A DNA stretch of 64,000 nucleotides. Origin: Closterium sp. NIES-65 (taxonomy: Eukaryota; Streptophyta; Zygnematophyceae; Desmidiales; Closteriaceae). The notes under the pieces were generated by a model. That model saw only the letters and a list, made by a program, of their open reading frames with translations. It did not search any database and was not told the origin of the DNA. The stretch covers positions 1 through 64,000 of the forward strand of contig CANXME010000319.1 of assembly GCA_948144175.1 (NCBI GenBank), read 5' to 3'. The number at the start of each line of letters is the position of its first letter. Position 1 is the first letter of the stretch. Shown here piece by piece: positions 905 to 21,737 of this stretch. The translations under genes and the position numbers were made by a program.

Positions 905-3390
905 GTGATTAGCAGCGTCGCAGATCGTCGCAGGGTGTCGCATGCACCCCTGGCGACAATGATAGCGAACGTCGCCAAGCTGGAACGAAGCTGGCTGTAG
1001 CTGACTGTCAATCAGCTTGGCTGTAGCTGCCTGTTAAGCAGCCCGGCTGTAGCCGACTGTACTTTATCCATGCTGGTGAGGTTATAGCGGAACGGTGGCA
1101 GAGAGCAGCACAGGCGGTTGTAGCAGAGATGCCGCAGAGAGCAGCAGCGGATGTAGCAGGGAAGTAACCTATTCCAGGCCACGTGCTCTGCTTACAGCAA
1201 CAGTGCTGTATCCGGTCCATTCATCATCCCATTCTCTCACTCATGAGTGGATGATTTGTTTAGCATTCTTGAAAATACCCCTCCCTTCCTCGTGTGTGTG
1301 TGCTCACCATGCACCACGCGCTCACCATGCACCCACGCGCTCACCATGCACCCACCACTGCCATACCTGCTCGTCGCACTTTTTTCAACCTCGCAGCTGT
1401 GTTGCTTGCTGATCGAGGGGCACATTGCTTGCTCTGTTTACATTGAAATGCGCTTATCCCATGTACCCACTCGACACATGCGCACACACTCTCTCACTGC
1501 ACAGCTCGGCTTTTCTTAATAGAGGCGGGCACCATTCATTACAAGGACACGCCCAACGCAGCATCATCATGATGATTAAGAACGTGTTGGACATGTGTGC
1601 TAGCGCCACCCGCGTGTGATAAGTCGATTTCTGAGTCGACAAAAATCATGATAAAGAACGTGTTGGACATGTGTGTCGGCAGTGCCATCGCCCGTATCCC
1701 TTCCACCTCCTCTTTCCACCTCCTCTTTCCACCTCCTCTTTCCACCTCCCTCGTTCCACCTCCTCGTTCCACCACCTCGTTCCACCACCTATCGTTCCAC
1801 CACCTCGTTCCACCACCTCGTTCCACCACCTCGTTCCCCCACCCATCCCACCCTCCAGCTCGCTTCTCTCTAATAGAGGCGGGGACCTTCGTTACACAGA
1901 ACACGCGCAACATAATGATCAAAACGTGCTGGACTGTGTGTCAACATGCGCCAGCCAGCGGCCAGCGCCATTGCCTCTGCTCATCGGCTTTGCCATTGCT
2001 TTGGAGTGGCTCTGATTTCATCGGCTGGCAAAACCCTCCGCACGGTAAGACCCTCAGGCTCGGTAAGAATCTCCGGCTCGGAGCCCTCAGGCATGGTAAG
2101 TCCCTCAGGCTTGGTAGGGCGCTCGCTTAGGCTTGGTAAGGCACTCAGGCCCAAAGGCACTCAGGCCCAAAGGCACTCAGGCCAAAGGCACTCAGGCCCA
2201 AAGCACTCGGCCCAAGGGCCAAAGGCACTCAGGCCCAAAACTCACTCAGGCCCAAAGGCACTCAGCCCAAGGCATTCAGGCCCAAGGCACTCAGGCCCAA
2301 AGGCAGTGAGGCCCAAAGGCAGTGAGGCCCAAAGGCAGTGAGGCCCAAAGGCAGTGAGGCCCAAAGGCAGTGAGGCCCAAAGGCATGTGAGGCCCAAAGG
2401 CAGTGAGGCCCAAAGGCAGTGGGGCCCAAAGCAGTGAGGCCCAAAGGCAATGAGGCCCAAAGGCAGTGAGGCCCAAAGGCAGTGAGGCCCAAAGGCAGTG
2501 AGGCCCAAAGGCAGTGAGGCCCAAAGGCAGTGAGGCCAAAGGCAGTGAGGCCCAAAGGCAGTGAGGCCCAAAGGCAGTGAGGCCCAAAGGCAGTGAGGCC
2601 CAAAGGCAGTGAGGCCCAAAGGCAGTGAGGCCCAAAGGCAGTGAGCCCAAAGGCAGTGAGGCCCAAGGCAGTGAGGCCAAAGGCAGTGAGGCCCAAAGGC
2701 AGTGAGGCGTGGTAATGTTGATCTATGCGGGCTCCCATTCTGCGTTTCACTCTTCCCCCCATGCTGTCTTCCTACCTAGCTGCCACACTCTCCGATGATG
2801 CCTTTCTCCCATCATGCTGTTCCCATGTAATGCCACGTGCGCCACACATGCGCCATGTGCCGTGCCACTTGCGATTGCCCATGCCTCATGCCCCATGCCC
2901 ACGGCCCATGCTCCATGCCCCATGTGTCAAAACCGTGATTTCTTTAGTTTGTATTGTTTTACTCTAGGTGGTGTACAATTCTGTTAGCTTAGGGTTAGGT
3001 CTGCTATATCTTTGCTGTATTCTCTCATTCTAGTCATTCATTCTCTCGTTCAGTTGTTAACACCATGCCCTCCATGTCTCGCCTCGCAACAGGTGTCGAT
3101 GGCAGTGGTGCCCCATGAGAGCGGGGCGCTATTCTTCTTCAACTTTGTCTTCTGTGCCACCAGCGCCACCATCTTTGCTGTGCTGTGGCCGAGAGGACTC
3201 AGATCACCGCCTACCTCTTCTTCAAGTGTGTAACCACCTTCCTTCTTTATCAGTCGACTCAAAACTGACTTGTGAGCAGAATCTTGAGTCGGCTAAAAAA
3301 ACCATCTTCGCTGGATCCGAGGCCGAGAGGACTCAGCAAGTAACCACCTCGCTTCTAGCCTTGCCTTTTCTGCAAATGACGGTTATTGCT

Positions 3391-3481
<91 letters not shown>

Positions 3482-3844
3482 GGTCCGTTGTATTAATTCA
3501 GCAGGGGTACAGATATGCAGTTCTATCCATGATAACCTCGATCCCATAAGCCCATCAACTCACCCCTCATCCCCCCCCCTCCCCTGAGTGACCCTCTAGC
3601 CCTCCAGCGTGTGGAGATGTCCCCCAGGTGCAGCGGCCAGGGGTCCGCTGCCATCTGGGGGTGCGCTGCCTCAATCCCAGCCCTGGCCTTGGTGTGCAGG
3701 GCGTTCGCCTGGGAGCGCTGGAGGGCCACTGACCAGCGCTGGCTGAAGTGGCAGGCCATCTTCTTGGCGGATTTCGCCAAGGGGCTGGCCCTGAAGCGGT
3801 TCCTAGCTGCTGCTGTGGCCAGCAGTTTCCTCTCTCTCTCTCTT

Positions 3845-3912
<68 letters not shown>

Positions 3913-6900
3913 CACACACACGTACGCACGCACGCACGTACGCACGCACGCACGTACGCACGCACGCACACACCGCACGTCTCATGCGCTCTCCTCTTCA
4001 TACGCATGTCTCACAATTTGCTCCCCACGCCTCCCGCCCAGCTTCTTCCTAGCAGCCATAATCTACCCGGTCATCGCGCATGTCATCTGGTCGCACCATG
4101 GGCTGCTCTCAGTGGCACCTGTGCTGCTTTGCTTGCTCCCCATTGTCAACCCCCACCTCGCCTCCCTCCGCCCAGCTTCTTCCTAGCAGCCATCATCTAC
4201 CCGGTCATCGCACACGTGATATGGTCGCACCACGGGCTGCTGTCAGCTGATGCGGGGGACTACGTGCTGGGCACCCGCGGTGTGCTCGACAATGCCGGCT
4301 CCATGGTCGTTCATGTCACTGGTGGGTGGGTGGTGGATGGTCACAGGTGGGCATGGCACAGGTGGGTCGTCGTGGATGGGCATGGTGGGCGTGGCATGGG
4401 CTGCTGTCAGCTGATGCGGGGGACTACGTGTTGGGCACGCGCGGCGTGCTCGACAATGCTGGTTCCATGGTCGTTCATGTCACTAGTGGGTGGGTGGTGG
4501 ATGGCATGGCACAGATGGGTGGTGGGTGGGGCATGGCACAGATGGGCACAGGTGGGCATGGCACAGATGGGCATGGCACAGATGGGCATGGCACAGATGG
4601 GCATGGCACAGGTGATCTCAAGTGCTTTCTTTGTAATATGTGCTCTTTGCTCCTTCCTGTATAGTGAGCAGCTGGTAACCTGGTTTCGTTTGTAATACCA
4701 TCGAACATGCCCTTGACAGGTGGCGTCACCTCATTGGTTGCTGCGTGGATGGTCGGCCCACGGATAGGAAGATTCGATATTGATGGCCGCGTTGTACCCT
4801 TTAGAGGGCACTCCCTGGTAAGATACTATCGCAATGTGATGGTCTGTAGTTTCAGCCTCATGGTCATTACTAGACCATCTCTAGTCTCTACATGGGCATT
4901 GGTTAGACTGCTCACTCACCACTACAAAACCGTCCAACCTCTTTTCATCCTCCTCGTCCTCCCTCTTCCTCCTCCCGCCGCTCTCCCCCTTCTCTCACCC
5001 TCCCACCCCTCTCCCCCCCGCCCTTCTCCCCTCTCATGACAGGGGGCACCATCATCCTCTGGCTGTGCTGCTGCTGCATGTGGGGGGTCAGGGACAGCAC
5101 TGCACTACCGTCCCCCTCCACTCAGTCTCCCTTTTCCCCCTCCCCCCGCTTCCCCTTCCCTCCCTCCGTCCACAGGTGTTCATAGCAGCGGGCACCATCA
5201 TCCTCTGGGTGGGGTTCTTCGGGTTCAACGGCGGCTCAGTGCAGTACCTGGGGCAGCCCGCCTCCGTGTGTGGCCGACGTCGCGCGCGTGTGCGCCACGA
5301 CCACCGTGTGGCGCCGCCTTTGCGGGCGTGGCGGTGTGGGTTTGTGACGTACCGGCGGAGGGAGCCGAATCTGGAGGACACGCTGAACGGCGTGATTGGG
5401 CGGGCTCGTGGCCGCCTGTGCCACGACAGTATTGTGGAGGCATATGCTGCGTGCATCATTGGTGAGTGCATGCAGGGGAGCTGGTGGGTCGGTGGTAGAG
5501 CTGGTGGGCTACGTTGGCAGATACGCTCCCAGGGTATAATACGCTAGCGTATTATACGCTGGGTATATACGCTGTACGCCAGGGCTGGCGTACTGGTGAG
5601 TACGCAAAAATACGCTGGGCGTGCAGGGTAAAACTTTTTCCCGGGGCAGGGCTAAAAAAACCTGTTTCAGGGGGGGGGATTGTTTTCCAAGAACACAAGT
5701 CATAATTTAAATTTCATAAATATCCTGAAATACATATTTGGGGCTACTTCTCCCCATACATCCCCCACCCCCACCCCACCCTCTAGCTAGCTTCCCCACA
5801 AACCGGATTTCCTTGCGGGGCTTTTCCACCACCACACCTTCCCATACTCATACACCAGCACTGCATTCCTCTCCTTCCTCCCCCAGCATGTCATCCTCCC
5901 TCCTCATCCATGTTATAGCCGGGGGGGATAGGGGCATCCGGGATGTTACCGGGCACAACCGTGCTGCCCCCATCCTTGCTTGTACCAATTGCGCAACAAC
6001 GTTCCAGTTGTGCGCAATGTAGACGAGGTCCGCACACTTGGCGGACCCGAGCCGGTTGCGGCGGGCGGTGTGGGACGCCTTCCCACTGCGCCCAGCCACG
6101 CTCGCATGGGGAAGCCAAGACGGGCTGAGTGAAGCACCCGGCATGCGAGGGCGACAAGCTCAGGATACTCGGTGCTGTGCCACGACCACCACTGCACCAC
6201 ATGCTCATCTCCCCCTTCTTCACTGCCTCCCTTGCAGAAATGGCGCCCGGCTTGCCAAAGCTGCCCTCCATGTTGATGTAGGTCAGCAATGCCTCCTGCA
6301 GCACAAGGGAGGCGCGGCGAGGGGCGCCATCCTTGCCACGCTTGAAGGTCTTGTTGTCATAGTGGCGCTCGATGTAGTCCTTGAACACCCGCGTGCACTC
6401 CACATCGTTCCTGAAATTCCCTACTCCTGGTTGGCCGGATTCAGGATCCGGCCAACCACATGCATGGGGCAGGCAAGGGAGTTGTCCCACCTGGTCCTTC
6501 ACAATCTTGGTGATGTCTGCCCTCTCTGTCCGAGTCAAGAAGTCACTTGAAGCGTCGAGCTTGTCATTGATGTCCTCGGTAAGCTGTAGCATGATGTTAT
6601 ACAGCTTACCCATCATGCCTTTCGCGGAAGAGTCCGTGGCCCGCATGGCCTTGAATGGCACCGCCATGAGAGAGGTAAAGAACTCCGCCACCCCCCACCA
6701 CTCCTCATCCATCACAGCAGCCCTGAATTTCTCAGCTGCTGTCTTCCTATCCTTGTCCGCCGCTGCCCACACCTTCCACTCGTCGCTGAGCACCATCGCC
6801 GCCAGCCCACTCCTCACCTCACATAGCCGGGCCATGGCTATGTATTGTGTCCCGAACCTGGTTCCCGCAGGCTTGAGCACCTGCTTCCCCCCCACTTTCT

Positions 6901-9900
6901 TCATATAGGCACGGGTAAAGTGGTGGTTGCGCACGAAGGTAATCATCTCCCCTCCTTTCTCCACAAGCCCCTTCGCCCATCCCATTTTGCCCATATCTTC
7001 CATCATCAGGTCCAGGACATGCGTGGTACATGGCACATGCTCAATGTGCGGCCATGTGCTCGCAATCTTCTTGGCGGCCGATGCATAGTTTGCTGCCGCC
7101 ATCGGTGCAGACCGCCACCACATTCTCCGGCCCCACCTTATCAATGACGGGGCGGATGAAGGCTGGCGATGTACCCCCCGGTCTACGACTCCATGTTGCA
7201 GTCCACCGCCTGCTCGAAAACTGCGCCGGAGTCGTTGACAAGGAGCACGTTGGCCTGCGGGCGGCCACAACGGTCGGTCATCATGTCCGACGACACCGTT
7301 ACCCCGTCCCGCTTCCAGCTCGCGGCAACGGGGGCGAACGCGACCTCCATTTTCTGCCGCACCTTCTTCAAGCCTGCCCCTCCAATGTAGCGCCTCTTAG
7401 GAGGGACGTACCCAGGTCCAGCGCGCGCAATGCACTGGACCGCGTAGCGGAAGACCGGATCGTCCGCAATGCGCTCCGGAAGTTTCAACGCCGCGAACAG
7501 AAAGCAAAGCGCGTTATCCGCGTCCTCCTTGGCGCACGTCGCCTCATTGCCAAAGAAATCTGTAATTTTGCTCTTTTTCTCCGGGTTTCCACTGACAGCG
7601 TCAAGCGCGGAGTGAATTGCAGCAGCGGCCGCCCCTCGCTTCAAGTCCTGCTGTTCCGCCTTGGTCTCGTACATGCCACGGACTTCATCGCGGACTGCCG
7701 TGGGCGCGTCCTTGCATAACGCCACAGCGCGCTTCTCCTGCCCTTTCCATGTCGCGAGATGGATTGCACAGCGGTTTGTTCCGCCCTCGAACTTCTTGCC
7801 ACAAAACTTGCACAGCTTGGGGTTGCCTTTGGTGTGAAATGGAATGAGGAAATGTTTCAGAATGGGGTGAGATAGTCCAGCCTCAACAGGATCCGTGTTG
7901 ACGGTAGTAGAGCCATGGACAGAGGCTGGATTGTTGTTCGTCGAAGTACTAGGAGCTGAGCCCGACGCCATGGCGCACTACGTAAGTCTAACTAACGAAG
8001 AAGAGTGGAGAAATGCGGGAAGGAAAAAGGAAGAGCATTTGCGCAACGTCGACCTATACGTGCAAACGATGGAAGAACATTTGAAGGGGGGTGGTTGGGA
8101 TTGAGAGGTTGGGTGGGGTGATGTGTGGTTGAGGGGGTGGGAAAGGTTTGGATTTTGAAATTCGAAGTTCAGAAGTGGGGTTGGGCACATGAGCGAAGTC
8201 GCGGTAACACTTCGCGACTTCGCACATCGTCGCGAAAGTTTTTTCAATTTCGGATTTTTTTTTTCGCCGGGGCTGCCCGGGCCGTATTTTCGCGAATTCA
8301 GAGCGTATCAGCGTATCACGCATATACGCTAGCGAATATACGTGATACGCCAGCCTTTCAAGAGCGTATCTGCCAACATAGCTGGTGGGTCGGTGGTTAA
8401 GGAGCTGGTGGGTCGGTGGTAAGGAGCTGGTGGGTCGGTGGTAAGGAGCCGGTGGGTCGGTGGTAAGGAGCTGGTGGGTCGGTGTGGTAAGGAGCTGGTG
8501 GGTCGGTGGTAAGGAGCTGGTGGGTCGGTGGTAAGGAGCTGGTGGGTCGGTGGTAAGGAGCTGGTGGGTCGGTGGTAAGGAGCTGGTGGGTCGGTGGTAA
8601 GGAGCTGGTGGGGTCGGTGGTAAGGAGCTGATGGGTCGGTGGTAAGGAGCTGGTGGGTCGGTGGTCAGGAGCTGGTGGGTCGGTGGTCAGGAGCTGGTGG
8701 GTAGGTGGTCAGGAGCTGGTGGGTCAGCGTCACACCTGGCACCTGGCAGCACCTCTCCAGAGATTGATTCGAGTGTACCTGCCAATTCGTTTCTCCTTGC
8801 ATACATCATCCATCCATCCATCTCCCTGCATGCATCATCCATCCATCCATCTCCCTGCATGCATCATCCATCCATCTCCCTGCATGCATCATCCATCCAT
8901 CTCCCTCCATCCGCCTTTCAGGGGCCATAGCAGGCGTGGTGTACCTGGGGGGGGTGTATCTGGTGAATAAGGCCCGCATTGACGACCCTGTTAATGTGAG
9001 TCTCACTGCCTTGCTCGCTAGGTGACTTTTGAGTCGACTCAAAAGTCAGCTCGCTGGCTCACTGCCTCGCTCGCTGGCTCACTGCCTCGCTCGCTGGCTC
9101 ACTGCCTCCCTGCCTCCATGCGTCTTCTCCCATCGTCGCTTCATGTCCCCTTGGGGGGGTGTATCTGGTGAATAAGGCCCGTATTGACGACCCTGTTAAT
9201 GTGAGTCCCATTGCCTCACAGCCTCAAAGCCTCACAGCCTCATAGCCACACAGCCTTACAGCCTCACAGCCTCATTGCCTCATTGCCTCATGGCCTTACT
9301 GTTTCAGTGCCTCTCTGCTTCCCTGCCTCCATGCCTCTTCTCCCACCGTCGCTTCATGTCCCCTTGTCCCACCCACCATGCATCCCTCCTAGGGATGAGC
9401 AAAGGGCGAACTCGAACACGTTCGGGTTCGAGTTCGCTCGAACATCACCATTTCCCGAACTGAACAAGGTTCGGTTCGGCGAACAATTTGGCAAGCAGGA
9501 GGTGTTCGCCGTTCGCCCATGGGGGCGAACATTTGGTATATGTGGGCGAACTCGAACATGTTCGGTTCGAACATGTTCGAGTTCGCCCGTGGGCAATTTC
9601 GTTATAGTCACATTGGTCAAACAGGGAATCTGGAGGGTTGGGAAGATAGATAGGGGGGTGGAGGGTGTATATGTGTTCATGCAACGCACACTAGCATACG
9701 ACACCATCATGTTTTGCCTATATAAAAGTCACTGTCAAATTAAATCCTACGCCTGCACACCACTGCTACTACCAACAACAGCATGCTCCGCGTCAGAGGT
9801 GTCGCCAGCACCCACCCCCTCCTGCTCCTCCTCCCCCTCCTCCTCCCACTCGTCGTCCTCATCCTCCCCCTCGCCTTCAATGGCGAACTCTGGTGGTGCC

Positions 9901-12900: not shown

Positions 12901-15900
12901 CGCCTTGCTGTCATCCCCGCTCCCCTCAGTGTCCTCCTCCTTCTCGCCCTCACCATACTCCTCCTCATCCTCCTCCTCACTGCCGCTCTCCGGCTGCGTC
13001 TGCGTCTGCCCCGAAGGAGGGGGTCGAGGGCCGTCGTAACGGAAAGAGCGACGAGAGGTCGGCGCCGGTACGGTAAGCAACCCCCCAACGAAGATCGCGC
13101 CGGCTCCTCCCGGTCCATCCCCTACTCGCCCCTGCATAGGTCGTGGTGGAGAACCCGGTGCGCTGCCCTGAGCCCTGCCTGCACCTCGGCCTATGGATCC
13201 ACCAGCCCTGGAAGCCATAACTCCGCCCTCGACCCTAAACCCTAAAACACCCTTCCTGCAACGGTAGCGTTGGATGGTGCCGCACGTTCCTAAACGTTAT
13301 CCCGCACGGTTAGGTCTCTGAAATGCCCGATCCGAATCCTACGGCGTAGGATACGCCCTACTTGAGCCCTTTGCGGAGATGCTGGCTGAACCTTAATAGT
13401 AACCCTAAACACCCTACACTACGTTAAACCCTATGCATAGATCTAATGTCCGTGTACATTGCAAGTATCAGCGTGCACTTGCTTGCACCTAGAACAAGAA
13501 GGCGAAAACGAGTTCTGAGTTTGAGCTCACGAAATGAGCTCAAACACAAATTGGTCGCGACCTAAATCTGGTCGCGGCCAATTTTGACGCGAACCTTTTT
13601 GGTGTTCGTGTGGCCCCCAAGTCGAACACAAACATGTTCGTGTTCGGCTTGGAGACCCGAAATTCTGGTGCGAACGTCGAACATGTTCGGCCGAACACCG
13701 AACATGTTCGGCCCGAACAATTTAGGCAAAAAAAAATGCCTGTTCGAGGCGAACCGAACAGGCGTTCGGAATTTTGCTCATCCCTAATCCCTCCCCACCC
13801 CTCTCTCCGCACCTCCACCCCAGCGGACGCCAGTGCCGTCCCGCCTGTGCGTTGCAATTGCAATTGCATTTGCTTCTAGTGCCCCAGCACCAGAAGCATG
13901 TGCATTTGCTTCTAGTGCCCCAGCACCAGAAGCGTGTGCATTTGTGCCGTGCCGCCTGTGCGCAACCTGACTTGCTCTTGTCTCTGCACCGGACTTCCCC
14001 ATCACCATCCGTCCCAACCCACCCCACTCGCCATGTCCCATCCACAGGCCACAGCGGTGCACCTGTGCTGCGGCACGTGGGGGAGCGTGGCCGTGGGCTT
14101 CTTCGCCTCGCCAGCAGCAGTGCAGCGCACCTACCAGTTCTCCGACCCCGTGCCCTGCGGCCTCTTCTACGGCTGCGGCGGCTCACAGCTGCTCGTGCAG
14201 GTGAAGTCTGGTGGGGTGTGATCTGCTCGTGCAGCTGCTCATGCAGGTGAGGCCTGGTGGAGGTGTGATCCGCACGTGCAGGTGAGGGGGCAGATGTGGT
14301 TCCAGGTGTGAAAGTAGTAAATTGAACAAGTAACTTCATTAGAGGAGAAACCTAGCATACATCGTTGGAAGAGAGGCTTGGAAGAGAAAGGCGAATGTGA
14401 CCATAGGTTGGGTTGACCTCACTTGGGGGAGTGAAGCAACCATAGGTCAAGTGGGTTGGGTTGCCCACACTTTGTAGAAGTGAGGCAACCCTAGGCCCAC
14501 TTGTCTTGAGATGACCTCTTTTGTGGGAAGTGAGGCACCCATAAGCCAAGTGGGTTGCATTTGGGGGCCCCACCACAATTGGGTGGATTGGCACCCCAAA
14601 GTGCAAGACTACACCCAAAGTTGGGTGTAGTCCCAACCCAACTGTACACCACAATTGGTGTACAGTCACATGTGTTGGCATGCTACACAATATATAATTC
14701 TAACACCAGGTGCCTCTATAGTAGCGTCTATTTACTCTCTCCTATGTAAACGCACATCCCATCCACTTTTTTTAACTGTTTTAAAGATCGTTAATTGACT
14801 GGCTCTCTCTCGTATGTAGACGCACATTCCATCCGCCCTGTGCCTTGCGGCCTCTTTGGCGGTTGTGGAAGAACACAGTTGCTGTAAAGGGGCACACAGC
14901 TGCCGTAAAAGGCACTTGCAATCACAAGGGCGTGTCATGTCATGTCGTGTCATGTCACGTCATGTCATGTCATGTCACGTCACGTCAAGTCATGTCATGT
15001 TACGTCATGTCATGTCATGTCACGTCATGTCACGTCATGTCACGTCACGTCACGTCACGTCACGTCACGTCACGTCACGTCATGTCATGTCACTCCACTT
15101 CCTGTCATGTCACTCCACTTCCTGTCATGTCACTCCACTTCCTGTCATGTCACTCCACTTCCTGTCATGTCACTCCACTTCCCCTGTCATGTCCTCCCAG
15201 TGCGCTGTAGTGCTTCTTGTCAGCCCTCCCATCGCTCTTTCCATAGCTTCACTCACTCTATCTCTCTCCGTCTCCCTCTCTCATCCCCCACCCTCCCTCT
15301 CCTCAATCGCAGATCCTGGGCCTTCTATTGGTGTACGCGTGGGTGGGCCTCTCGTCCTTTGTCCTGTTCTACGCGCTGCACTATTTCGACGTGTTGCGAG
15401 TCAAGAGGCACGAGGAGGAGGTGAGACGGGGAGGCATGGATGGGAGTGTGTGTGTGCGAGGGGAGGGAAGCGGGTAAAGGGAATAGGGGATGGTTATGCG
15501 GATGGGGGATTGGGGGAATTCAATTCAGCCGGCGTCTCATGGTTTGTTTCATTCTCCCTTCACTTGCATGATTCTAGTTTTGTAGGTGCCTCTAAATTCG
15601 TTGCAAGGTTTGTGCTTCTTCAACCTTCACTTGAATGGGTCATCGAATTTTCTGAGGCGTCTGCCGGATTACATGCTCATGGTCACTCAGATTTTAATTA
15701 TCCGATCCTGAGTTTCGTGTCTTTGATCTTGATTTGCATCATTGTTTACAAGTTTCTGTGTCGATTCGTTTCTTGCACTTCACCCAAAATCGAACACGGT
15801 CCTTGGCTGGTTCGCACCCGATTCAACTGTTTACCTTGATTTTAGGGTTTACAGTATTCCCTCTCTCGACTGGGTACATTTCTCTCCTTCTCTACTCACA

Positions 15901-16193
15901 GGGGGGGTTGGGCACGGCATATCACGGGGTTAACGACGATCACAAGGTTTGAGTCGACTCAAAAGTCAGCTCAGCTCAACTATAGGCATATCTCTTTCTC
16001 CCTCCCTCTCTGCTGACAGGTGGGGCTGGATGTGGCATTCCACGGGGGCAACGACGATGACGAGGCGTTTGACGTGGTGGAGGATGGCGACAGCATGGCA
16101 CGCAGGCTGCTGACGTGGCGCAAGCTGCAGGTGTGTGGTGTGGGGGAGAAAACATCGTGTGCTGACCTGGCACATATGTCCTTGCTGGGTTGA
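712..16193 (+). CDS. AMT: Ammonium transporter (AMT/Mep family), multi-exon gene with hAT insertions in two introns
   Basis: This encodes an integral membrane ammonium channel/transporter of the AMT/Mep/Rh family. Family landmarks occur in the correct order over ten exons: a first helix ending FIVLFMQ; IEAG plus IMIKNVLDMC (exon 2); FNFVFCATSATIFA and AERTQITAY (exon 3); YPVIAHVIWS, the DNAGSMVVHVTGG signature (exon 4), GPRIGRFD (exon 5), AAGTIILWVGFFGFNGGS (exon 6), GAIAGVVYLG (exon 7), AVHLCCGTWGSVAVGFFAS (exon 8), a last helix (exon 9) and a cytoplasmic tail with GLDVAFHGG (exon 10), the tail motif typical of plant AMT1-like proteins. Introns are GT-AG. Exons 1, 2, 3 and 6 contain frame breaks, so the gene is either decaying or sequenced with indels. 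hAT elements sit in introns 6 and 7. Family assignment is firm; functionality is uncertain. Confidence 0.85.
1505..1690 (+). repeat. Acceptor-anchored echoes of AMT exon 2
   Basis: At 1505, directly after CAG, a copy begins LGF.LIEAGT and reaches MMIKNVLDMC at about 1605, matching exon 2 at 1859 but with frame breaks. A second, 3'-half-only copy (IMIKNVLDMCVGS) lies at 1647-1690, just after a GAGTCGAC-type motif at 1634-1641. The two upstream copies preserve the KNVLDMC codons better than exon 2 itself. Confidence 0.75.
1694..1850. repeat. Pyrimidine minisatellite (CCACCTC-type)
   Basis: Tandem units of 12-15 bases such as ccacctcctcttt and ttccaccacctcg fill the space between the exon 2 echoes and exon 2 itself, acting as its polypyrimidine tract. 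Confidence 0.85.
1859..2044 (+). CDS. AMT exon 2
   Basis: The exon follows CCTCCAG and encodes LIEAGTFVTQNTRNIMIK, the AMT helix 2/loop segment, and near its end GSDFIGWQNPP, matching the family's FIGW loop before helix 3. At least two single-base losses separate these parts (around 1918-1930 and 2000-2012). A GTAAGA donor follows at 2045. As written, the reading frame is not continuous. Confidence 0.6.
2040..2710. repeat. Intron 2 minisatellite beginning at the splice donor
   Basis: The donor GGTAAGACCCTCAGGCTC is repeated with variation four to five times (2044-2145: GGTAAGA, GGTAAGA, GGTAAGT, GGTAGGG, GGTAAGG). It grades into a long array of a 15-16 base unit, aaaggcagtgaggccc and variants, to about 2708. 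Confidence 0.9.
2711..3092 (+). other. AMT intron 2, 3' part
   Basis: No gene or known element is seen. Short CATGCC/CCATGC-type repeats lie at 2825-2930 and T-rich sequence precedes the acceptor at 3091-3092. Confidence 0.6.
3093..3225 (+). CDS. AMT exon 3
   Basis: It begins AG|GTGTCG and encodes SGALFFFNFVFCATSATIFA, then after a one-base loss near 3182 AVAERTQITAYLFF, the AMT helix 3-4 segment with the AER signature. It ends before GTGTGT at 3226. The last two bases combine with exon 4 to continue FF.FFLAA. Confidence 0.75.
3301..3350 (+). repeat. Donor-side echo of AMT exon 3
   Basis: This copy repeats TIFAG..AERTQ followed by the donor and intron start (caagtaaccacctc). It lacks the 20 bases for ITAYLFF. 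It keeps the G codon (GGA) that the main exon has lost, so the echo is in frame where the exon is not. Confidence 0.7.
3391..3478. repeat. (CT)n microsatellite
   Basis: About 44 uninterrupted TC dinucleotides in AMT intron 3. Chance open frames (LSLSLS, ERERER) across it are not genes. Confidence 0.97.
3830..3985. repeat. Compound microsatellite (CT)n(CA)n(ACGC)n
   Basis: CT repeats run to about 3885, CA repeats to about 3920, then ACGC/ACGT tetranucleotides to about 3970, all within AMT intron 3. Confidence 0.95.
4041..4113 (+). repeat. Acceptor-anchored echo of AMT exon 4
   Basis: Directly after GCCCAG, this copy encodes FFLAAIIYPVIAHVIWS and reaches HHGLLS before diverging. It repeats the first 70 bases of exon 4 (4176) with few changes and keeps its own polypyrimidine tract and acceptor. 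Confidence 0.85.
4176..4321 (+). CDS. AMT exon 4
   Basis: It encodes FFLAAIIYPVIAHVIWS, then HHGLLSADAGDYVLG and DNAGSMVVHVTG, the most diagnostic AMT segment; the D-x-AGS-x-VVH stretch corresponds to the family signature at helix 5. Its frame is open throughout. A GGTGGGT donor follows. Confidence 0.9.
4320..4620. repeat. Minisatellite plus donor-anchored echo of AMT exon 4
   Basis: After the donor, GGTGGGTGGGTGGTGGATGG and gggcatggcacagat units alternate. At 4398-4497 a full copy of the last ~85 bases of exon 4 plus its donor is embedded (GLLSADAGDYVLG to VVHVTS), still open and over 90 percent identical by eye. Confidence 0.88.
4720..4817 (+). CDS. AMT exon 5
   Basis: It follows TTGACAG and begins GTGGCGTC. 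It encodes GVTSLVAAWMVGPRIGRFD, the AMT helix 5 end and GPRIGRF loop, then VVPFRGHSL. A GTAAGA donor follows. No echo of this exon was found. Confidence 0.88.
5042..5064 (+). repeat. Acceptor-anchored echo of AMT exon 6
   Basis: Directly after GACAG, the sequence ggcaccatcatcctctgg repeats the GTIILW codons of exon 6 (5190-5207), then diverges. It is short but sits after its own acceptor-like AG. Confidence 0.6.
5176..5461 (+). CDS. AMT exon 6 with frame breaks
   Basis: It begins AG|GTGTTC and encodes VFIAAGTIILWVGFFGFNGG, the helix 6 region. It should continue through the ATTT helix and end EAYAACIIG. The expected pieces lie in three different frames: ADVARVCATTT (about 5269-5301), AAFAGVAVWVC (about 5310-5345) and LNGVI then VEAYAACIIG (5380-5461). 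Several single-base indels are therefore present. A GTGAGT donor follows. Confidence 0.7.
5482..5508. repeat. Left end of intron 6 minisatellite
   Basis: Copies of ctggtgggtcggtggt start right after the exon 6 donor. The same array resumes at 8382 beyond the hAT element, so the transposon split the array. Confidence 0.85.
5509..8381 (-). mobile_element. hAT-family DNA transposon, element 1
   Basis: The element has 20-base terminal inverted repeats at 5509-5528 and 8362-8381 (CTAYGTTGGCAGATACGCTC, one mismatch) and is flanked by an 8-base duplication CTGGTGGG (5501-5508 and 8382-8389), diagnostic of hAT. The flanks are minisatellite, so the duplication is slightly weaker evidence here. Subterminal palindromes built on TATACGC/GCGTATA lie at 5535-5580 and 8305-8350. 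It carries a broken DUF659-type transposase on the minus strand. Confidence 0.88.
5891..7971 (-). pseudogene. hAT transposase with BED finger and DUF659, frameshifted
   Basis: Translation probably starts at 7971. The N-terminal third has a BED-type zinc finger (CKFCGKKF...CAIHLA) and a DUF659 segment (DGVTVSSDMMTDRCGR). The frame shifts near 7190 (PVIDKVGPENVVAVCTDGG) and again near 7090. From there PCTTHVLDLMMEDMGK and KPAGTRFGTQY, both standard for plant hAT transposases, are open. The C-terminal dimerisation part (WHSTEYPELVALACRVL, NRLGSAKCADLVYIAHNWNV) is scattered over two further frames at 6000-6190. Function is lost as written. Confidence 0.8.
8382..8740. repeat. Intron 6 minisatellite, right part
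   Basis: About 16 copies of a 22-base unit containing ctggtgggtcggtggt, with little variation, ending about 8725. Confidence 0.95.
8806..8905. repeat. CATC-rich minisatellite
   Basis: Units of catccatccatctccctgc and shorter versions are repeated about four times just upstream of AMT exon 7. Confidence 0.9.
8922..8995 (+). CDS. AMT exon 7
   Basis: It follows CTTTCAG and encodes GAIAGVVYLGGVYLVNKARI ending DDPVN, the AMT helix before the RIDDP loop. The frame is open and a GTGAGT donor follows. Confidence 0.85.
9023..9048. repeat. 26-base perfect palindrome centred on GTCGAC
   Basis: The half-site TGACTTTTGAGTC is followed by its exact complement. It lies between AMT exon 7 and its echo. 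Related sequences (GAGTCGACTCAAAA) lie at 15951-15964 and, less perfectly, at 3252-3266 and 1634-1645, each also between an AMT exon and its echo. Confidence 0.85.
9050..9115. repeat. Short tandem repeat, ctcactgcctcgctcgctgg
   Basis: About three copies of a 20-base unit in AMT intron 7, related to the sequence just after the exon 7 donor. A looser cctcacagcc array follows the echo at 9215-9300. Confidence 0.85.
9151..9200 (+). repeat. Donor-anchored echo of AMT exon 7
   Basis: The last ~48 bases of exon 7 (GVYLVNKARIDDPVN) and the GTGAGTC donor are repeated almost exactly, without the upstream part or an acceptor. Confidence 0.9.
9390..13786 (-). mobile_element. hAT-family DNA transposon, element 2
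   Basis: Terminal inverted repeats TAGGGATGAGCAAA (9390-9403) and its complement (to 13786) are flanked by an exact 8-base duplication ATCCCTCC (9382-9389 and 13787-13794). Both ends carry dense subterminal repeats of GTTCG and AACATGTTCG (9405-9590 and 13595-13770), likely transposase-binding sites. It encodes a multi-exon transposase on the minus strand. It lies in AMT intron 7. Confidence 0.95.
9747..13218 (-). CDS. hAT transposase with introns (Ac/Tam3-like)
   Basis: The likely exons on the minus strand are 13218-12100, 11932-11472, 11281-10987, 10808-about 10221 and about 10195-9747, each with GT-AG borders except the last junction, which is unresolved (a TAG lies near 10221). The N-terminal exon is low-complexity and acidic with a BED-like finger (CKICTDKFSW...HFASFH). 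Exon 2 has FTIDMWSAPNNRAWLVVTGH and GFTSDNASSN, exon 3 CLAHVINLAVKAAL and TRWGSTHDMVERA. The last exon has the hAT dimerisation signature LAIPATSASSERVFSLGR. It appears almost intact, so this element may have been active recently. Confidence 0.85.
14048..14200 (+). CDS. AMT exon 8
   Basis: It follows ATCCACAG and encodes ATAVHLCCGTWGSVAVGFFA, then VPCGLFYGCGGSQLLVQ. The AVH..CGTWG stretch corresponds to the AMT helix 10 pore histidine region. The frame is open and a GTGAAG donor follows. Confidence 0.9.
14201..14290 (+). repeat. Tandem echoes of the AMT exon 8 donor
   Basis: The exon end and donor CTCGTGCAGGTGA is repeated as gctcatgcaggtgagg and cgcacgtgcaggtgagg, separated by cctggtggaggtgtgatc units, giving three to four tandem donors. 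Confidence 0.8.
14291..14837 (+). other. AMT intron 8, middle part
   Basis: No gene is seen. It contains diverged direct repeats of an AGTGAGGCAACCNTAGGNC-like motif (14425-14560) and an inverted ACCACAATTGG/ccaattgtggt pair (14570-14660), which may be an unclassified short element. Confidence 0.4.
14838..14886 (+). repeat. Distant echo of AMT exon 8
   Basis: The sequence encodes PCGLFGGCGRTQLL, aligning with PCGLFYGCGGSQLL at the end of exon 8, then meets a stop. It lies 640 bases downstream of the exon. Confidence 0.7.
14931..15195. repeat. (TCATG/TCACG)n satellite followed by a 20-base minisatellite
   Basis: Pentanucleotides catgt and cacgt alternate over 150 bases, then cactccacttcctgtcatgt is repeated about five times (15090-15185). 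It lies in AMT intron 8. Confidence 0.95.
15313..15420 (+). CDS. AMT exon 9 (last helix)
   Basis: It follows TCGCAG and encodes ILGLLLVYAWVGLSSFVLFY, then LHYFDVLRVKRHEEE, the final transmembrane helix and start of the cytoplasmic tail. A GTGAGA donor follows. Confidence 0.85.
15902..15947 (+). repeat. Acceptor-anchored echo of AMT exon 10
   Basis: Directly after CTCACAG, GLGTAYHGVNDDHK aligns with GLDVAFHGGNDDDE of exon 10. The palindrome-type sequence GAGTCGACTCAAAAG follows immediately. Confidence 0.78.
16020..16193 (+). CDS. AMT exon 10 (C-terminal tail)
   Basis: It begins AG|GTGGGG in phase with exon 9 and encodes VGLDVAFHGGNDDDEAF, then a charged tail to a TGA at 16191-16193. The GLD..HGG motif matches the regulatory tail of AMT1-type proteins. 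A GTGTGT after CAG at 16132 could be a donor for a further exon, so the end is tentative. Confidence 0.7.
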   Translation: MGLDVAFHGGNDDDEAFDVVEDGDSMARRLLTWRKLQVCGVGEKTSCADLAHMSLLG

Positions 16194-16775: not shown

Positions 16776-16845
16776 CAGCATTTCTCAACGCTCTTCTCCC
16801 GAGCAGCCGCCAAGAACACCAGCCGCCACAACGGATATGATTTTT
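16776..16845 (+). repeat. Acceptor-anchored echo of PP2C exon a
   Basis: After CAACCAG, STLFSRAAAKNTSRHNGY is encoded exactly as at 16899-16952, then diverges to a stop. The preceding cccttccc...cacaaccag sequence is also shared. Confidence 0.9.
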
Positions 16846-16895
16846 CAGGCATCTGAAATCCCCCCGCTCCTCCCCTTCCCCACCCACAACACAAC

Positions 16896-17180
16896 CAGCA
16901 TGTCTCAACGCTCTTCTCCCGAGCAGCCGCCAAGAACACCAGCCGCCACAACGGGTACGGCCCAACCGGGGCGGCAGGCAGGGACGGCAAGGGCGGCAAG
17001 GGGGGCGGCAAGGGCGGCAGCCTGAGCCAGCTGGCGCAGAGCCTGCACCCCAAGGGGTGGAACGTGGGGGAGAGGAAGGCGCGGCGGCCTGTGTGGCACA
17101 AGGCACTGGAGGGCACGCACCTGGGGCGATTCTCGCTGGCCATGTATGAGGCCAACTATATCATGGAGGACACTGTTGAG
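16896..17180 (+). CDS. PP2C exon a
   Basis: It follows CAACCAG and encodes STLFSRAAAKNTSRHNGY, a Gly/Lys-rich linker, LAQSLHPKGWNVGERKARR, then WHKALEGTHLGRFSLAMYEA and NYIMEDTVE. It ends GAG before GTGAGT. No upstream ATG in frame was confirmed, so an earlier exon is likely. Confidence 0.75.
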
Positions 17181-20100
17181 GTGAGTGCTGCAGTGCAGCG
17201 TGCTGGTTTGTTTTTGGAATCTGGAACCTGGTCAACTGGAATCTGGAAAGTCTTGTCTTCCCGTGTGGCACAAGGCGTTTGAGAGCACGCACCTGGGGCG
17301 ATTCTCCCTGGCCATGTATAAGGCAACTATATCATTGAGGATACTGTGGAGGTGAGTGGGGTGCATTGGTTTCTTGGCTGCATTGCAAGTGGACTAGAAA
17401 CTGGAAACTGGTAACTGGTAACTCGGCCCGCGTTTCTCCCTGGCCATGTATGAGGCCGGCTACATCGTGGAAGATACTGTAGAGGTTAGTACAGTGCATT
17501 GGTTTCTTGATTGTTCGTCAACTGGTAACTCGGCGCATGTGGAACAAGGCCCTTGAGTTGAGAACACACGCCGCTATCTCCGTTTCTCCTACGTTTCGCT
17601 CAAGTCTTTTTGTTGAGCATTGATGGTCCACCTGTTCTTATCCCATCTCCTCGTGATGTGTGCGCAGGTGCAATCGTCGAGTCGCGGGGTGTTCATCGGG
17701 ATTCACGATGGGCACAACGGGAGTGAGGCGGCGGAGTTTCTACGGGAAACACTGTACAACAACATCATGAGTGAGTGTAACACTATACAACAACATCATG
17801 AGTGAGTTTGTATTTTAGGCACCTCAAAAAAGCATTGTACAGCCACATTATGAGTGGGCAACGCACTCTGCAACAGTAGATTGAGCTGACTTGTCAGATC
17901 GTTCCACCAGAGATCCGGCCCGGCCCGTTCTCACGGCCAAGTGAGGCCCAAACACTGCAATATTTTTCACAAGTCAAGCAATGTGCAGGTGGGTCGTCTG
18001 GTGGGCTGTCCCCACTGTGTGAAGCCACCCGCTCTCCCTCCCTATCAACTTGTCTTCCTTTTGCCGTTGGTGCAATCTCGCTTCACTTGCATGTCTCTTG
18101 TCCCCAGGCGAGTGCACGGAGGGCAACGGGGTGTCAGTGGAGGCGTTGCGGAAGGGCTTTGACGCAACAGAGAGGCAGCTGGCGGCCATTGTGAGGGAGG
18201 CGTTTGAGGAGAGCCCGCACCTGGCCATGGTGGGGGCGTGCTCTGTGGCCGCCCTCATCACCCCCACTGCCATCTGGGTCGCCAATGTCGGCGACTGTCG
18301 CGCCGTGCTGGGTCAGGTGGGTTTGTTTCTGATGACACGTCTCAAGAGTTGTGCCTTGGGGCTGCTCTCATGATCTCATCACCCCCTCTGCCATCCGGGT
18401 CACCAATGTGGGCGAGTGCCGCGCCGTGCTGGGCCAGGTGTGTTGTGGGTCTTGTTGTATGCGGGCAGGCTGCTGCTTGCTTGTTCTTCTGATGCGCATC
18501 AAAGCTGCTTCGTCGAGCTGGGCCAGGTGCATTTGAGATGTCTCACGAGTCGTGCTCCATGGCTGGCTTCTCTGATCTCATGACGAGTCCGTTGCGCCGC
18601 CAGGGTTGCCAATGCCGGTGACTGCTGCGAGGGTGGGAGCTTTCTTTGTACAGGTTCCTATCCATCCCAAGGATGAAATCCACCCTTGCACGGACTCGGA
18701 TGGGCTCCAGGCCCTCCCTTTCCCGATGCAAAGGCCGGGATGACCAGGGTTGCCAATGTCGGTGACTGCTGACCATTGTGCCACCAATGTGTGCCTAGCA
18801 TCTCTTCTTTGTCATACCTAAGCTCACAAACCCATATCGCAGGAGCAGGATGAGATGAGCCCTGATGCAAGACACGCAACAACTGATTCCACTGGGTGTT
18901 GATCCAAGCACAGTGGTTGCTCAGCAAGGTGATGCATGCAGGCGGCCGTTTTGGAGGCCAGGGGCTTACCAACAACCATCTCACTAATAATGGCATAGGC
19001 GGGACGGGAGGGTGGGAGCAGGGCGAGAAACCCAAGTCGTATGTCGTAGGCGATGCTGGGATGTGGCGGTGATCTGATGATGGCGGAATTTATCGAGGCT
19101 CTGAGGGACTAATACATCTTCAGAGCCAACACTCTTCACAAAGATAAGGATGAATGAAACCCACCCCCCCCACCCGCACCACCCTCCAAACAGGTCCGTC
19201 AAGTGTCAGACGGTGTCGAGTGTCAGGCAGTGCAGCTGTCCACGGGCCACAACCTGTCGGTGCCTCTTTCCCTTCCCCTCCTCTCCTCTCCCTTTCCCCT
19301 CCCCCTTTCCCTACCCCATCCAAGCAGGTGCGGCAAGTGTCAGACGGGGTGGAGTGCCGAGCAGTGCAACTATCAACGGACCACAACCTGTCAGTGCCGG
19401 CCATCAGAGAGAAGTACATCGCGGAGCATGCCGACATGCCCGATGCCGTTGTTGAGCGCCGCGGCCGCTTCCGTGTGAAGGGCAAAGTGATGGTGAGGGA
19501 AAAGTGATGGTGAGGGCAAAGTGATGGTGAAGGCAAAGTGATGGTGAGGGCAAAGTGATGGTGAGGGCAAAGTGATGGTGAGGGCAAAGTGATGGTGAGG
19601 GCAAAGTGATGGTGAGGTCGAGAAGTTTGTTAGATGTGAGCATTCCGATTGTCGAGCACTGTGGACGCTTGTGAAGGGAAAATATTTATGCTGAGGGCGA
19701 TGATGTAACGTAACCACTCCGACCGACCCACCCGATGCCCCTCCCCATCCATCCACCTTCCATTCCATGGGTCCTGCTCAATTTCCCTTTCATGCACCGC
19801 CCCCATACTCCCTCCCACCGCAGGCCTCTATCTCAACTCCACAAACTTTCTGTCGAGAACCCTTATTTCCTGCGTCTCTGTCACTAATCCCCAACTTCCA
19901 TTCCCTACTACCGCCCCCATCCTTAGGTCACCAAGGCCTTTGGCGACCTCTATCTCAAGTCCACCGACTTCAATCGGGAGCCCCTCGTGTCGCGCTTCCG
20001 AGTGCCGGAGCCCTTCAACCCGCCGCTCATCTCCGCCGACCCCTCCGTGGCCGTGCGCGTCTTCTCGCCGCACGACTCATTTGTCATCGTGGCCTCCGAC

Positions 20101-21737
20101 GGGCTCTTTGAGTTCCTCTCCAACCAGGAGGCCGTCAACATCGTCGCCAGCAGCCCTAGGAAGGTGAGTGGGCAGGCGGGTCGTAGTGCGGTGCAGAGCG
20201 GTGCAGATGGGCTGGCTGGCTGTCATCGTGGCCTCGGACGGGCTGTTTGAGTTCCTCTCCAAGCAGGAGGACGTCAACATCGTGGCGAGCAGCCCTAGGA
20301 AGGTTTGTTCTCTTCTTTTCCAGGCGCCTTGGTACATGTGCATGCTGCTGCTGCCTTGTTCCTTGTCCCCTCCTCTTTCTAGTCATGAGCAAGGTGCTGC
20401 ACTTGTGGCTGCTCGTATCTGTGTCCTCAAAAGGATAAACTCCGACGTTTTCATTGAAGGATGTCATTAATGGATGCCATTGCACCCCAATGCTGCTTCA
20501 CGACTTGCCGCCATTCGTTTGTCCCGCTACTGCCTCGCAGCGTAGCCCGTCGTTGCCGTTGTCATTCCTCCGTGATCTGCCTATCGTTTTTCTGAGTCAA
20601 CCCAGAACAGAATCACCCTCATCATTCCTCTGGGCCCATCCCATCCTGCTGCTACAGGACGTGGCTCGCCAGCTAATCCGGACGGCGCTGCAGCGGGCGG
20701 CAGAGAAGACGGAGATGCTGTACAACGACTTACTGCGCATGCCGTCCGGGCAGCGGCGGGACTACCACGATGACATCAGCGTTGTCGTCTTCTTCCTGGA
20801 CCATGATGCCATGCAGCGATCCTCTCATAGCTTCTGGAAGAAGGTGAGCTGTCCGGTTTAATATATATATTTGTAAAGGGTGTGCCTCTGCCTTCACCTC
20901 CTTCCCCCTTCCCTTCCCTCGCCCCATTGTACCCTTGCCCCCTCCAATGACGTGTCTGTCAAGGGTGACTCCGCCATCACCGCCCCCCCCCTCCCCCTAC
21001 CCTTCCCCTTCCACTCTCCCATTTCTACCCTTCCCCTTCCCTTCCCCCCTGTATCCTCCCCCTCCCACCCCCAGGATGTGTCCATAAAGGGTGGCTCCAC
21101 CCTTATCTCCTTCCCTCCCCCCCTCCCTGCTCCCCCCTGCGTCCCCCTTCTTTCCCCCCCCCTCCAGGACGTGTCTATAAAGGGCGGATCAGCAGCCTCC
21201 TCTCTCCTGGCCGCCCCCACCATCTCCGGTGCTGACGTGCACAACATCTCCAGCATACGTGGCGCCACGTCAGCGCGCGACGCGCTGGCAGATGCGCGGG
21301 CGCAGCAGGGGGAGGCTCCACCTCAGGGCAGCCCCACGTGGCAGGCAGGGTCGGTTTCTGAGGCGCTTCAAAGGCAAGGCAGCGCCAGCTGGCGGCCAAG
21401 CTCAGTTTCTGAGGCGCTTCAGAATCAAGGCAGCGCCAGGTGGCAGGCAGGCACAGTTCCCGAGGCGCTTCAAAGGCAGGGCAGTGCCAGTTGGCAGGCA
21501 GGCTCAAGGGAAGCCGAAAGGGAGGTTCTAGGAGTCGGCAACGGGGGGTGGGGGGAAGGTGCAGGGAGGAGCGGGCTAGTGGGTGTGGGTGGGTCAGGGA
21601 GCAGCAAAGGTGGGGCTTGGAGGGAAGAGGAAAGGAGCATGTCGGGGAGCCGCCGGCATGCTGGTGATGCGCTGGTGGGGTTGACTGTGCCTGAGGATGC
21701 TGTAGTGGACGTCAGCCAATTAGGGCCCGCCAGCTGA
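16896..21737 (+). CDS. Protein phosphatase 2C, plant clade-D-like, multi-exon
   Basis: This is a metal-dependent Ser/Thr phosphatase. The ordered PPM motifs are FSLAMYEANYIMEDTVEV, VFIGIHDGHNGSEAAEFL, IWVANVGDCRAVLGQ, LSTDHNLSVP, VTKAFGDLYLK, FVIVASDGLFEF and YHDDISVVVFFLDH, with the metal-binding aspartates of DGH, SDG and HDD present. The FS-x-A..ANY..ED start and AFGD-x-YLK match plant clade D; known clade D members act on plasma-membrane H+-ATPase. The canonical DGHGG is DGHNG here and GDSRAV is GDCRAV. The last exon adds a long tail with tandem repeats. All exons are in phase. The first exon is not identified with certainty. Confidence 0.88.
17262..17590 (+). repeat. Three donor-anchored echoes of PP2C exon a
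   Basis: Copies lie at 17262-17351 (WHKAFESTHLGRFSLAMY, donor GTGAGT), 17430-17484 (FSLAMYEAGYIVEDTVE, donor GTTAGT) and 17533-17590 (WNKALELRTH, degenerate). Intron text between them (cattggtttcttg, ctggtaactcgg) is co-duplicated. Confidence 0.9.
17668..17770 (+). CDS. PP2C exon b
   Basis: It begins AG|GTGCAA and encodes VQSSSRGVFIGIHDGHNGSE, then AAEFLRETLYNNIM. It contains the DGH metal-binding motif. It ends in phase 1 before GTGAGT. Confidence 0.85.
17771..17863 (+). repeat. Donor-anchored echoes of PP2C exon b
   Basis: The exon end acactgtacaacaacatc plus atgagtgagt recurs once exactly (17779-17808) and once degenerately (17829-17860), with a 31-base period for the first pair. Confidence 0.85.
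18108..18316 (+). CDS. PP2C exon c
   Basis: It follows TCCCCAG, completing the Ser codon split after exon b. It encodes ECTEGNGVSVEALRKGFDAT, then VGACSVAALITPTAIWVANV and GDCRAVLGQ, the core beta-strands of the PP2C fold. A GTGGGT donor follows. Confidence 0.87.
18317..18775 (+). repeat. Donor-anchored echoes of PP2C exon c
   Basis: Copies of the exon end occur at 18372-18437 (LITPSAIRVTNVGECRAVLG, then GTGTGT), 18510-18530 (ELGQ plus GTGCAT), 18597-18636 (VANAGDC) and 18746-18772 (RVANVGDC then stop). Intron segments such as ctgatgacacgtctcaagag are also repeated. Confidence 0.85.
18776..19193 (+). other. PP2C intron c, 3' part
   Basis: No gene or recognisable element is seen in this stretch. 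Confidence 0.5.
19194..19264 (+). repeat. Acceptor-anchored echo of PP2C exon d
   Basis: After AAACAG the copy encodes VRQVSDGVECQAVQLSTGHN then LSVP, matching exon d to its 24th residue, and then enters pyrimidine-rich intron. It keeps both acceptor and AG|GT context. Confidence 0.92.
19328..19492 (+). CDS. PP2C exon d
   Basis: It begins AG|GTGCGG and encodes VRQVSDGVECRAVQLSTDHN, then REKYIAEHADMPDAVVER and GRFRVKGKVM. This corresponds to the LTxDHN and WRIKG segments of plant PP2Cs. It ends before GTGAGG. Confidence 0.87.
19481..19620 (+). repeat. Tandem array of the PP2C exon d donor
   Basis: The exon end plus donor gcaaagtgatggtgaggg (18 bases) is repeated about eight times, so each unit carries a potential GT donor after GTGATG. 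Confidence 0.95.
19824..19880 (+). repeat. Acceptor-anchored echo of PP2C exon e
   Basis: After ACCGCAG the copy reads GLYLNSTNF and then RTL, aligning with GDLYLKSTDFNREPL of exon e, with indels. Confidence 0.75.
19927..20163 (+). CDS. PP2C exon e
   Basis: It begins AG|GTCACC and encodes VTKAFGDLYLKSTDFNREPL, EPFNPPLISADPSVAVRVF, and FVIVASDGLFEFLSNQEAVN to SPRK. It contains the SDG metal-binding aspartate. A GTGAGT donor follows. Confidence 0.9.
20219..20302 (+). repeat. Donor-anchored echo of PP2C exon e
   Basis: AVIVASDGLFEFLSKQEDVN to SSPRK followed by GTTTGT repeats the last 84 bases of exon e. It is fully open and over 90 percent identical by eye. Confidence 0.93.
20658..20843 (+). 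CDS. PP2C exon f
   Basis: It follows CTACAG and encodes DVARQLIRTALQRAAEKTEM, then YHDDISVVVFFLDHDAMQRS, completing the catalytic domain with the last metal-binding aspartates. A GTGAGC donor follows. No echo was found. Confidence 0.9.
20947..21110 (+). repeat. Two echoes of the start of PP2C exon g
   Basis: NDVSVKGDSAIT (20947-20984, no clear acceptor) and DVSIKGGSTLIS (21075-21110, after CCCCAG) precede the intact DVSIKGGSAAS of exon g. Confidence 0.85.
21168..21737 (+). CDS. PP2C exon g (C-terminal tail with tandem repeats)
   Basis: It follows CTCCAG and encodes DVSIKGGSAASSLLAAPTIS, then a tail with about three repeats of a 19-20 residue unit of the type SVSEALQRQGSASW (21341-21505). 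It ends at a TGA at 21735-21737. The tail is outside the PP2C fold and I do not recognise it from other phosphatases. Confidence 0.82.
   Translation, partial: DVSIKGGSAASSLLAAPTISGADVHNISSIRGATSARDALADARAQQGEAPPQGSPTWQAGSVSEALQRQGSASWRPSSVSEALQNQGSARWQAGTVPEALQRQGSASWQAGSREAEREVLGVGNGGWGEGAGRSGLVGVGGSGSSKGGAWREEERSMSGSRRHAGDALVGLTVPEDAVVDVSQLGPAS

Follow-up and report, generated by a model that had tools for sequence, protein, structure and literature searches.

Partial copies of exon ends in the introns of a Closterium transporter-phosphatase gene differ from their exons mostly at silent sites

We analysed a window of 64,000 nucleotides (contig C319, positions 1 to 64,000) from the assembly of Closterium sp. 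NIES-65, which comprises 874 Mb in 2400 contigs. The genome description of this strain reports 876 Mb, haploid material and assembly by Canu, followed by correction with Arrow and Pilon (PMC10407611). The window begins with one fused AMT-PP2C gene (712-21737, plus strand) encoding a transporter-phosphatase. The original prediction had described two neighbouring genes. However, the last ten exons form a single open frame, running from the C-terminal half of AMT into PP2C. Furthermore, on contig C1923, which carries a clean copy of the locus, all 17 exons join in a single reading frame that encodes 1075 amino acids and, with the stop, measures 3228 nt. By eye, the annotated NIES-65 protein P0001 equals the window translation except for its start and one stretch. 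The pairing of PF00909 with PF00481 is also seen in Klebsormidium, Chara and Marchantia proteins, as well as in one labelled Mesen1 (putatively Mesotaenium).

Frameshifts in the window are confined to the first 9 kb, where they break AMT exons. None are present on C1923 or on C415, which carries a third copy; the AMT exons are intact on both, ruling out that the AMT half is a pseudogene. The same 9 kb contain about 105 gaps relative to C1923, some in minisatellites, and more relative to C415. Judged by these alignments, the frameshifts are indel errors at a contig end and the start of C319 looks unpolished. The three contigs are 98.2-99.7% identical and, hence, are not independent evidence against assembly error. 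The gene spans 21 kb in the window, of which about 7 kb is transposon; mean intron length is given as 485 bp in PMC10407611. Transposon-like reading frames lie on the minus strand inside two AMT introns (5890-7971 and 10220-13218). Two frames of the former match Pfam DUF659 below the cut-off and three frames of the latter match nothing. Elsewhere in the window, a 379-bp unit is repeated in tandem (36109-36869, 96%) inside what appears, by eye, to be a retrotransposon coding region.

Every exon was compared by alignment with the introns flanking it, using up to 1.5 kb of either. Partial exon copies scoring above all 40 dinucleotide shuffles are referred to as echoes. For C1923, the flank was limited to 1 kb, and scores were compared with 100 single-base shuffles on the plus strand. 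Plus-strand echoes were detected for 13 of the 17 exons in the window (A2, A3, A4, A6, A7, A8, P0, P1, P2, P3, P4, P5 and P7) and for the same 13 on C1923. This agrees with the original prediction that at least 12 of about 17 exons have degenerate partial copies in introns. For A1, A5, A9 and P6, no echo scored above shuffles in the flanking introns. The reverse complement of the flanks never exceeded shuffles for any of the 17 exons in the window.

All of these features are on the plus strand, and echoes were placed by exon-against-flank alignment. Exons A1 (712-904), A2 (1859-2044), A3 (3093-3225), A4 (4176-4321) and A6 (5176-5461) were located by tblastn; the last three were also aligned. 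A1, the start of AMT, has a 1-nt assembly insertion in the window, A2 and A6 have indel errors and A3 has one; A1 and A2 are intact on C1923, which was also used to define A3. Two acceptor-side echoes precede A2 (1509-1599 and 1642-1677) and a donor-side echo of A3 (3301-3336) stops short of the donor; both sets are also found on C1923. A4 is copied on both sides. Codon comparison identified 7 synonymous and 0 non-synonymous differences in its acceptor-side echo (4042-4112), and 6 and 0, respectively, in its donor-side echo (4395-4484). Exon A5 (4720-4817) was placed by alignment, and A6 has an acceptor-side echo (5034-5065). The donor-side echo of A7 (9149-9200; exon 8922-8995, by alignment) belongs to a duplication that reaches into the intron, and appears in the list of duplication events and in the spacer comparison described below. 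Exon A8 (14048-14200, open frame) has a donor-side echo at 14832-14883. A9 (15313-15420) was defined by open frame and alignment.

The remaining exons were defined by open frame. Exon P0 (16020-16130, also from C1923) carries the AMT C-terminus in frame into the PP2C part and has an acceptor-side echo (15916-15952). P1 (16899-17180) has an acceptor-side echo of 97% identity (16779-16837, also on C1923) and two donor-side echoes (17260-17351 and 17430-17484). The following intron of C1923 (window 17181-17667) is missing from the paralogues on C2082 and C1475, where a single exon spans the site. P2 (17668-17770) has a donor-side echo with a 31-bp shift (17779-17801), and P3 (18108-18316) has three (18375-18437, 18603-18624 and 18747-18768). 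The acceptor-side echo of P4 (19194-19264; exon 19328-19492) differs at 10 synonymous and 2 non-synonymous positions, according to codon comparison. A 17-bp array (19493-19617; tandem array 19479-19617) is seeded on the P4 donor. P5 (19927-20163) has a short acceptor-side echo of 24 nt (19825-19848) and a donor-side echo (20221-20302), 93% identical, in which similarity ends at the donor GT. P6 occupies 20658-20843 (also aligned). Finally, P7 and the stop codon (21168-21737) are preceded by an acceptor-side echo (21075-21121) that protein comparison finds read through in P0001.

Echoes fall into the two anchored classes anticipated from the window, with 5' parts of exons upstream and 3' parts downstream. 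Judged by exon midpoint, this side rule was obeyed by 80 of 80 echoes from six loci, with outputs checked by hand. The set excludes six C1923 rows of the P4 17-bp array, and numbers 77 without three rows of locus L054 that repeat near-identical C1475. None of the 80 spans both exon ends, unlike an array of mutually exclusive or alternative exons, in which every copy has an acceptor end and a donor end. The exons expected to be copied on both sides (AMT 4; PP2C a, d and e) are indeed A4, P1, P4 and P5; of these, the upstream P5 copy is only the 24-nt echo and the downstream P4 copies are the 17-bp array. On C1923, shifts of the 20 echoes ranged from 31 to 691 bp (median 143.5; 12 between 93 and 172) and, outside the P4 array, echoes differed from exons by 3-25%. 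Echoes of the AMT half are present on all three contigs.

Echoes are not restricted to this gene: further genes of NIES-65 have them, as do proteins annotated in other Closterium strains, although some genes lack them. Across 24 PP2C loci, flanks had a local copy in 179 of 1310 windows, compared with 14 of 68 for windows at core edges and 29 of 248 for those within cores; on the reverse strand the numbers were 2, 0 and 1, respectively. These counts include minisatellites, and some loci are copies of one another. With minisatellites masked and shifts of at least 60 bp, events per kb, which are lower bounds, were 1.03 for C1923, 2.60 for C1475, 0.25 for L042 and 0.29 for L043. Values were 9.0, 2.83, 4.5 and 2.17 for L051, L052, L053 and L054, loci partly chosen after repeated matches had been seen. 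The count was zero in C2082, L041, L044 and L050. Five random stretches gave 0, 0, 0, 0 and 1.5, and the transposon part of the window 0.17. The C2082 paralogue, with a gene span of 5.7 kb, contained minisatellites only and no echo-type copies, in a comparison that is likewise a lower bound.

Gene families were also inspected by eye in HMM tables, with contig copies merged. Adjacent matches on one strand were called echo-like pairs if they had at least 20 family positions in common; they imply no rate. Such pairs were evident in six PP2C genes (C2039, C1851, C106, C198, C970 and C2390), three TCP-1 genes (C1626, C43 and C1052) and at least three kinesin genes (C1673, C1367 and C2165). The side rule fits all ten pairs with a readable side (C106 and C2165 have none) among the matches listed. 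Unlike echoes, adjoining kinesin matches at C511:712945-713361 and C1052:556971-557362 cover the same family positions but lie on opposite strands. At L051, one exon is followed by 15 downstream copies according to donor motif, and 17 according to BLAST. Donor-to-donor spacing is 116-195 bp, except for one gap of 757. Translated echoes were identified by script in NIES-53 protein P0017 and Yama58-4 protein P0019, and by eye in NIES-54 protein P0007 and NIES-65 protein P0013. By script, P0007 showed no internal repeat, and neither did five proteins from Marchantia, Mesotaenium, Klebsormidium and Chara.

The data support tandem duplication across exon-intron boundaries as the origin of echoes. 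As a well supported first step, repeated local tandem duplication within gene bodies, in units mostly of about 90-235 bp, would yield the copies. If one breakpoint fell within an exon and the second within an intron, the duplication would be tolerated, because one full exon and both splice sites survive. The product would be an acceptor with the 5' part of the exon upstream, or the 3' part with a donor downstream. Hence, the side rule, with its two anchored classes, would follow automatically. When the spacer between exon and echo was compared with the mirrored flank, 17 of the 20 echoes were testable; 9 matched at no more than 10 of 300 shuffles, and 8 did not reach this level. The abrupt end of similarity at the donor of the downstream P5 echo is not predicted by plain tandem duplication. 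Insertion of spliced mRNA is ruled out for this echo; by eye, gtttgttctc follows instead of exon P6. Repeats of 51 and 102 bp occur inside exon P7. Duplications with both breakpoints in one exon would usually spoil the protein, and the P7 repeats would be a tolerated exception.

Local copying is not confined to exon edges. In the window gene, 50-nt windows had a local copy within 700 bp in 246 of 861 cases for introns (28.6%, with minisatellites and the echoes themselves included), 46 of 160 for edges (28.7%) and 63 of 241 for exons (26.1%). Corresponding counts were 5 of 695 for transposons and 0 of 118 outside. No class had any on the reverse strand at the threshold used; at lower thresholds, roughly 1% of transposon windows did. 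The near absence of local duplications from the two transposon regions in AMT introns means that the transposons may be younger than the echoes. In our list of duplication events, a lower bound, exon-touching events far outnumber intron-only events at spacings of at least 90 bp, which made targeting of exon edges look likely. However, targeting found no support once exons, echoes, minisatellites and transposons were masked. The remaining 607 intron windows yielded three exon-free duplication families, with shifts of 36, 48/98 and 70 (the family at 70 adjoins the A8 echo), and a further match (shift 213), the intronic part of the A7 duplication. On these few cases, longer recognisability is the best explanation for the surplus of exon echoes. 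Consequently, our second step, supported by small numbers, is that duplications would not be aimed at exon edges and that the exonic half would outlast intron sequence that is turning over.

These observations divide the view, taken from the window, of a continuing process that copies exon edges and lengthens introns. Repeated local copying of edges, with lengthening of introns, stands: the C2082 paralogue, in which no such copies were detected, spans 5.7 kb compared with 21 kb (about 7 kb of it transposon), and echo-like pairs occur in unrelated families. Special targeting of edges does not, given the masked scan. Similarly, seven exons were correctly described as starting with GT directly after the acceptor AG (7 of 16 acceptors). 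The suggested creation of introns from AGGT was not borne out, as AG and GT flank only 3 of 16 introns. The AGGT model of intron gain by Rogers, as described in PMC4974935, also invokes tandem duplication beside splice sites. It differs in that units here cross existing boundaries and in the same 3 of 16 count.

For an echo that is dead from the outset, divergence at silent sites accrues in exon and echo alike, but at amino-acid sites in the echo alone. Hence, a pN/pS near 0.5 is expected. For the 20 C1923 echoes, pN/pS was 0.18 (S 79.5, N 44.5, 0 stops). The same value was obtained for 40 echoes from five other loci (S 275.5, N 160.5, codon positions 75:73:288), where the 2 stops are one echo seen in both C1475 and L054. 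It was obtained again for 20 echoes from the AMT half of C1475 plus one more exon (S 93.5, N 54.5, 0 stops); the latter two sets share the C1475 gene but no exons. Neutral decay of echoes was simulated under six mutation spectra, with values of 0.39-0.66. A further simulation, which used three spectra and included random ages, indels and a similar detection step, yielded 0.39-0.52. In each of 12 settings, detection step included, 0.18 was reached in 0 of 2000 bootstraps of 20 echoes. Single echoes vary, and pS ranges from 0 to about 0.6 within the C1923 gene. Only or mostly amino-acid changes separate exon and copy for the upstream A6 echo (C1923) and for copies of exon positions 73-108 (C1475). 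At the level of sequence, the mostly silent differences suggest that the copies were recently part of working genes, and are not dead debris. We infer that unequal exchange brings copies into the functional position and out of it again, or else that the echoes derive from functional copies that had diverged.

Our third step is that most divergence between exon and echo may have built up while both lineages coded for protein. In the simplest account, a carousel, unequal exchange between repeated units, within or between alleles, would add and remove units. Recently functional edges would become echoes, echoes would become the edge, and copies with amino-acid changes would be purged on return to use. 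The L051 array was examined in this respect, using 15 copies, one of them the exon, chosen for donor motif and similarity. Between echoes, pN/pS was 0.23; pS was 0.43 for exon against echoes versus 0.48 among echoes, which places the exon hardly nearer to its echoes than these are to one another. All four combinations were present at 95 of 120 informative site pairs. Exchange is expected to produce this, but repeated mutation at high pS could do so too. By eye, NIES-53 and NIES-65 share the A6 exon of the C1475 gene but differ in its echo. Thus, decay of an echo seems possible once function is lost, and this echo seems to be decaying now. Downstream echoes have no acceptor, so past function requires exchange with other alleles. 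We tentatively propose, as a possibility that we would not yet bet on, that exon edges in Closterium are not fixed, each border being a single unit in a tandem array that keeps turning over, with repeated swaps between the functional edge and intronic copies by unequal exchange. Taken as a whole, the explanation by tandem duplication, untargeted edges and this carousel seems to us to have an even chance of being right.

Echoes could instead have been copied during repair from a diverged functional template, such as a homeologue, a paralogue or a foreign allele after hybridisation. They would then be born with mostly silent differences and decay neutrally, and low pN/pS would be accounted for without any exchange between edge and echo. 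More than half of NIES-65 gene groups are duplicated and hybridizations are named in a section title, according to PMC10407611. Even so, we consider such a template rather unlikely; the span of pS among echoes of one gene argues against it and, with the three NIES-65 gene copies nearly identical, no living donor is seen. It is improbable that the echoes are in use, as alternative acceptors or donors spliced into some transcripts and kept coding by selection. The P7 echo is indeed in frame in P0001, from an annotation whose evidence included RNA data (PMC10407611), and GTGAGTG is kept in 14 of 15 L051 donor-motif echoes, though the motif search favours that outcome. Conversely, none of the 80 echoes covers both exon ends, in-frame stops follow the A2 and P1 upstream echoes (by eye) and the C1475 A6 echo seems to decay differently in two strains.

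Ordinary neutral decay, with tandem duplications across exon edges leaving dead fragments only, fits the geometry and the few echoes with only or mostly non-synonymous differences. It conflicts with the codon comparison in three sets, at 0.18 versus a simulated 0.39-0.66, and we regard it as quite improbable. An assembly artefact is barely credible. The window is an unpolished contig end, as its gaps attest, but echoes outside the P4 array are diverged from their exons, are present on three (albeit near-identical) contigs and have similar counterparts in proteins of other strains. For these reasons assembly duplication was judged unlikely.

A boundary-crossing tandem duplication with intron gain is described for the potato RdRp gene (PMC4974935). 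There, too, a direct duplication lies over an intron-exon boundary and includes the acceptor and the 5' part of the exon. In that account, the potato case is a single event that created a spliced intron. In contrast, 80 echoes were measured across six loci of Closterium; they lie upstream as well as downstream of exons, in some cases as arrays, and carry a coding-level signature, with no new intron seen. Small tandem duplications arise in human and mouse cells by fill-in of break ends by Pol alpha-primase/CST (PMC8355091). The reaction described there would be a plausible source of short direct duplications. Copy number variation reported for Closterium concerns the same strain, in which duplication is rife at gene scale (PMC10407611). 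That variation involves whole genes, whereas parts of exons are duplicated here.

For annotation, our results are a warning that gene predictors can take echoes for exons. The boundary-crossing duplication used for comparison, as presented in PMC4974935, is a single case. Where one genome holds numerous such copies that differ in age, intron growth, splice-site competition and intron gain could be followed as they proceed. That presumed intron debris carries a coding signature is also relevant to the evolution of exon borders. If exon edges are indeed exchanged with their copies, the introns of Closterium would be a reservoir of spare, recently functional exon ends.
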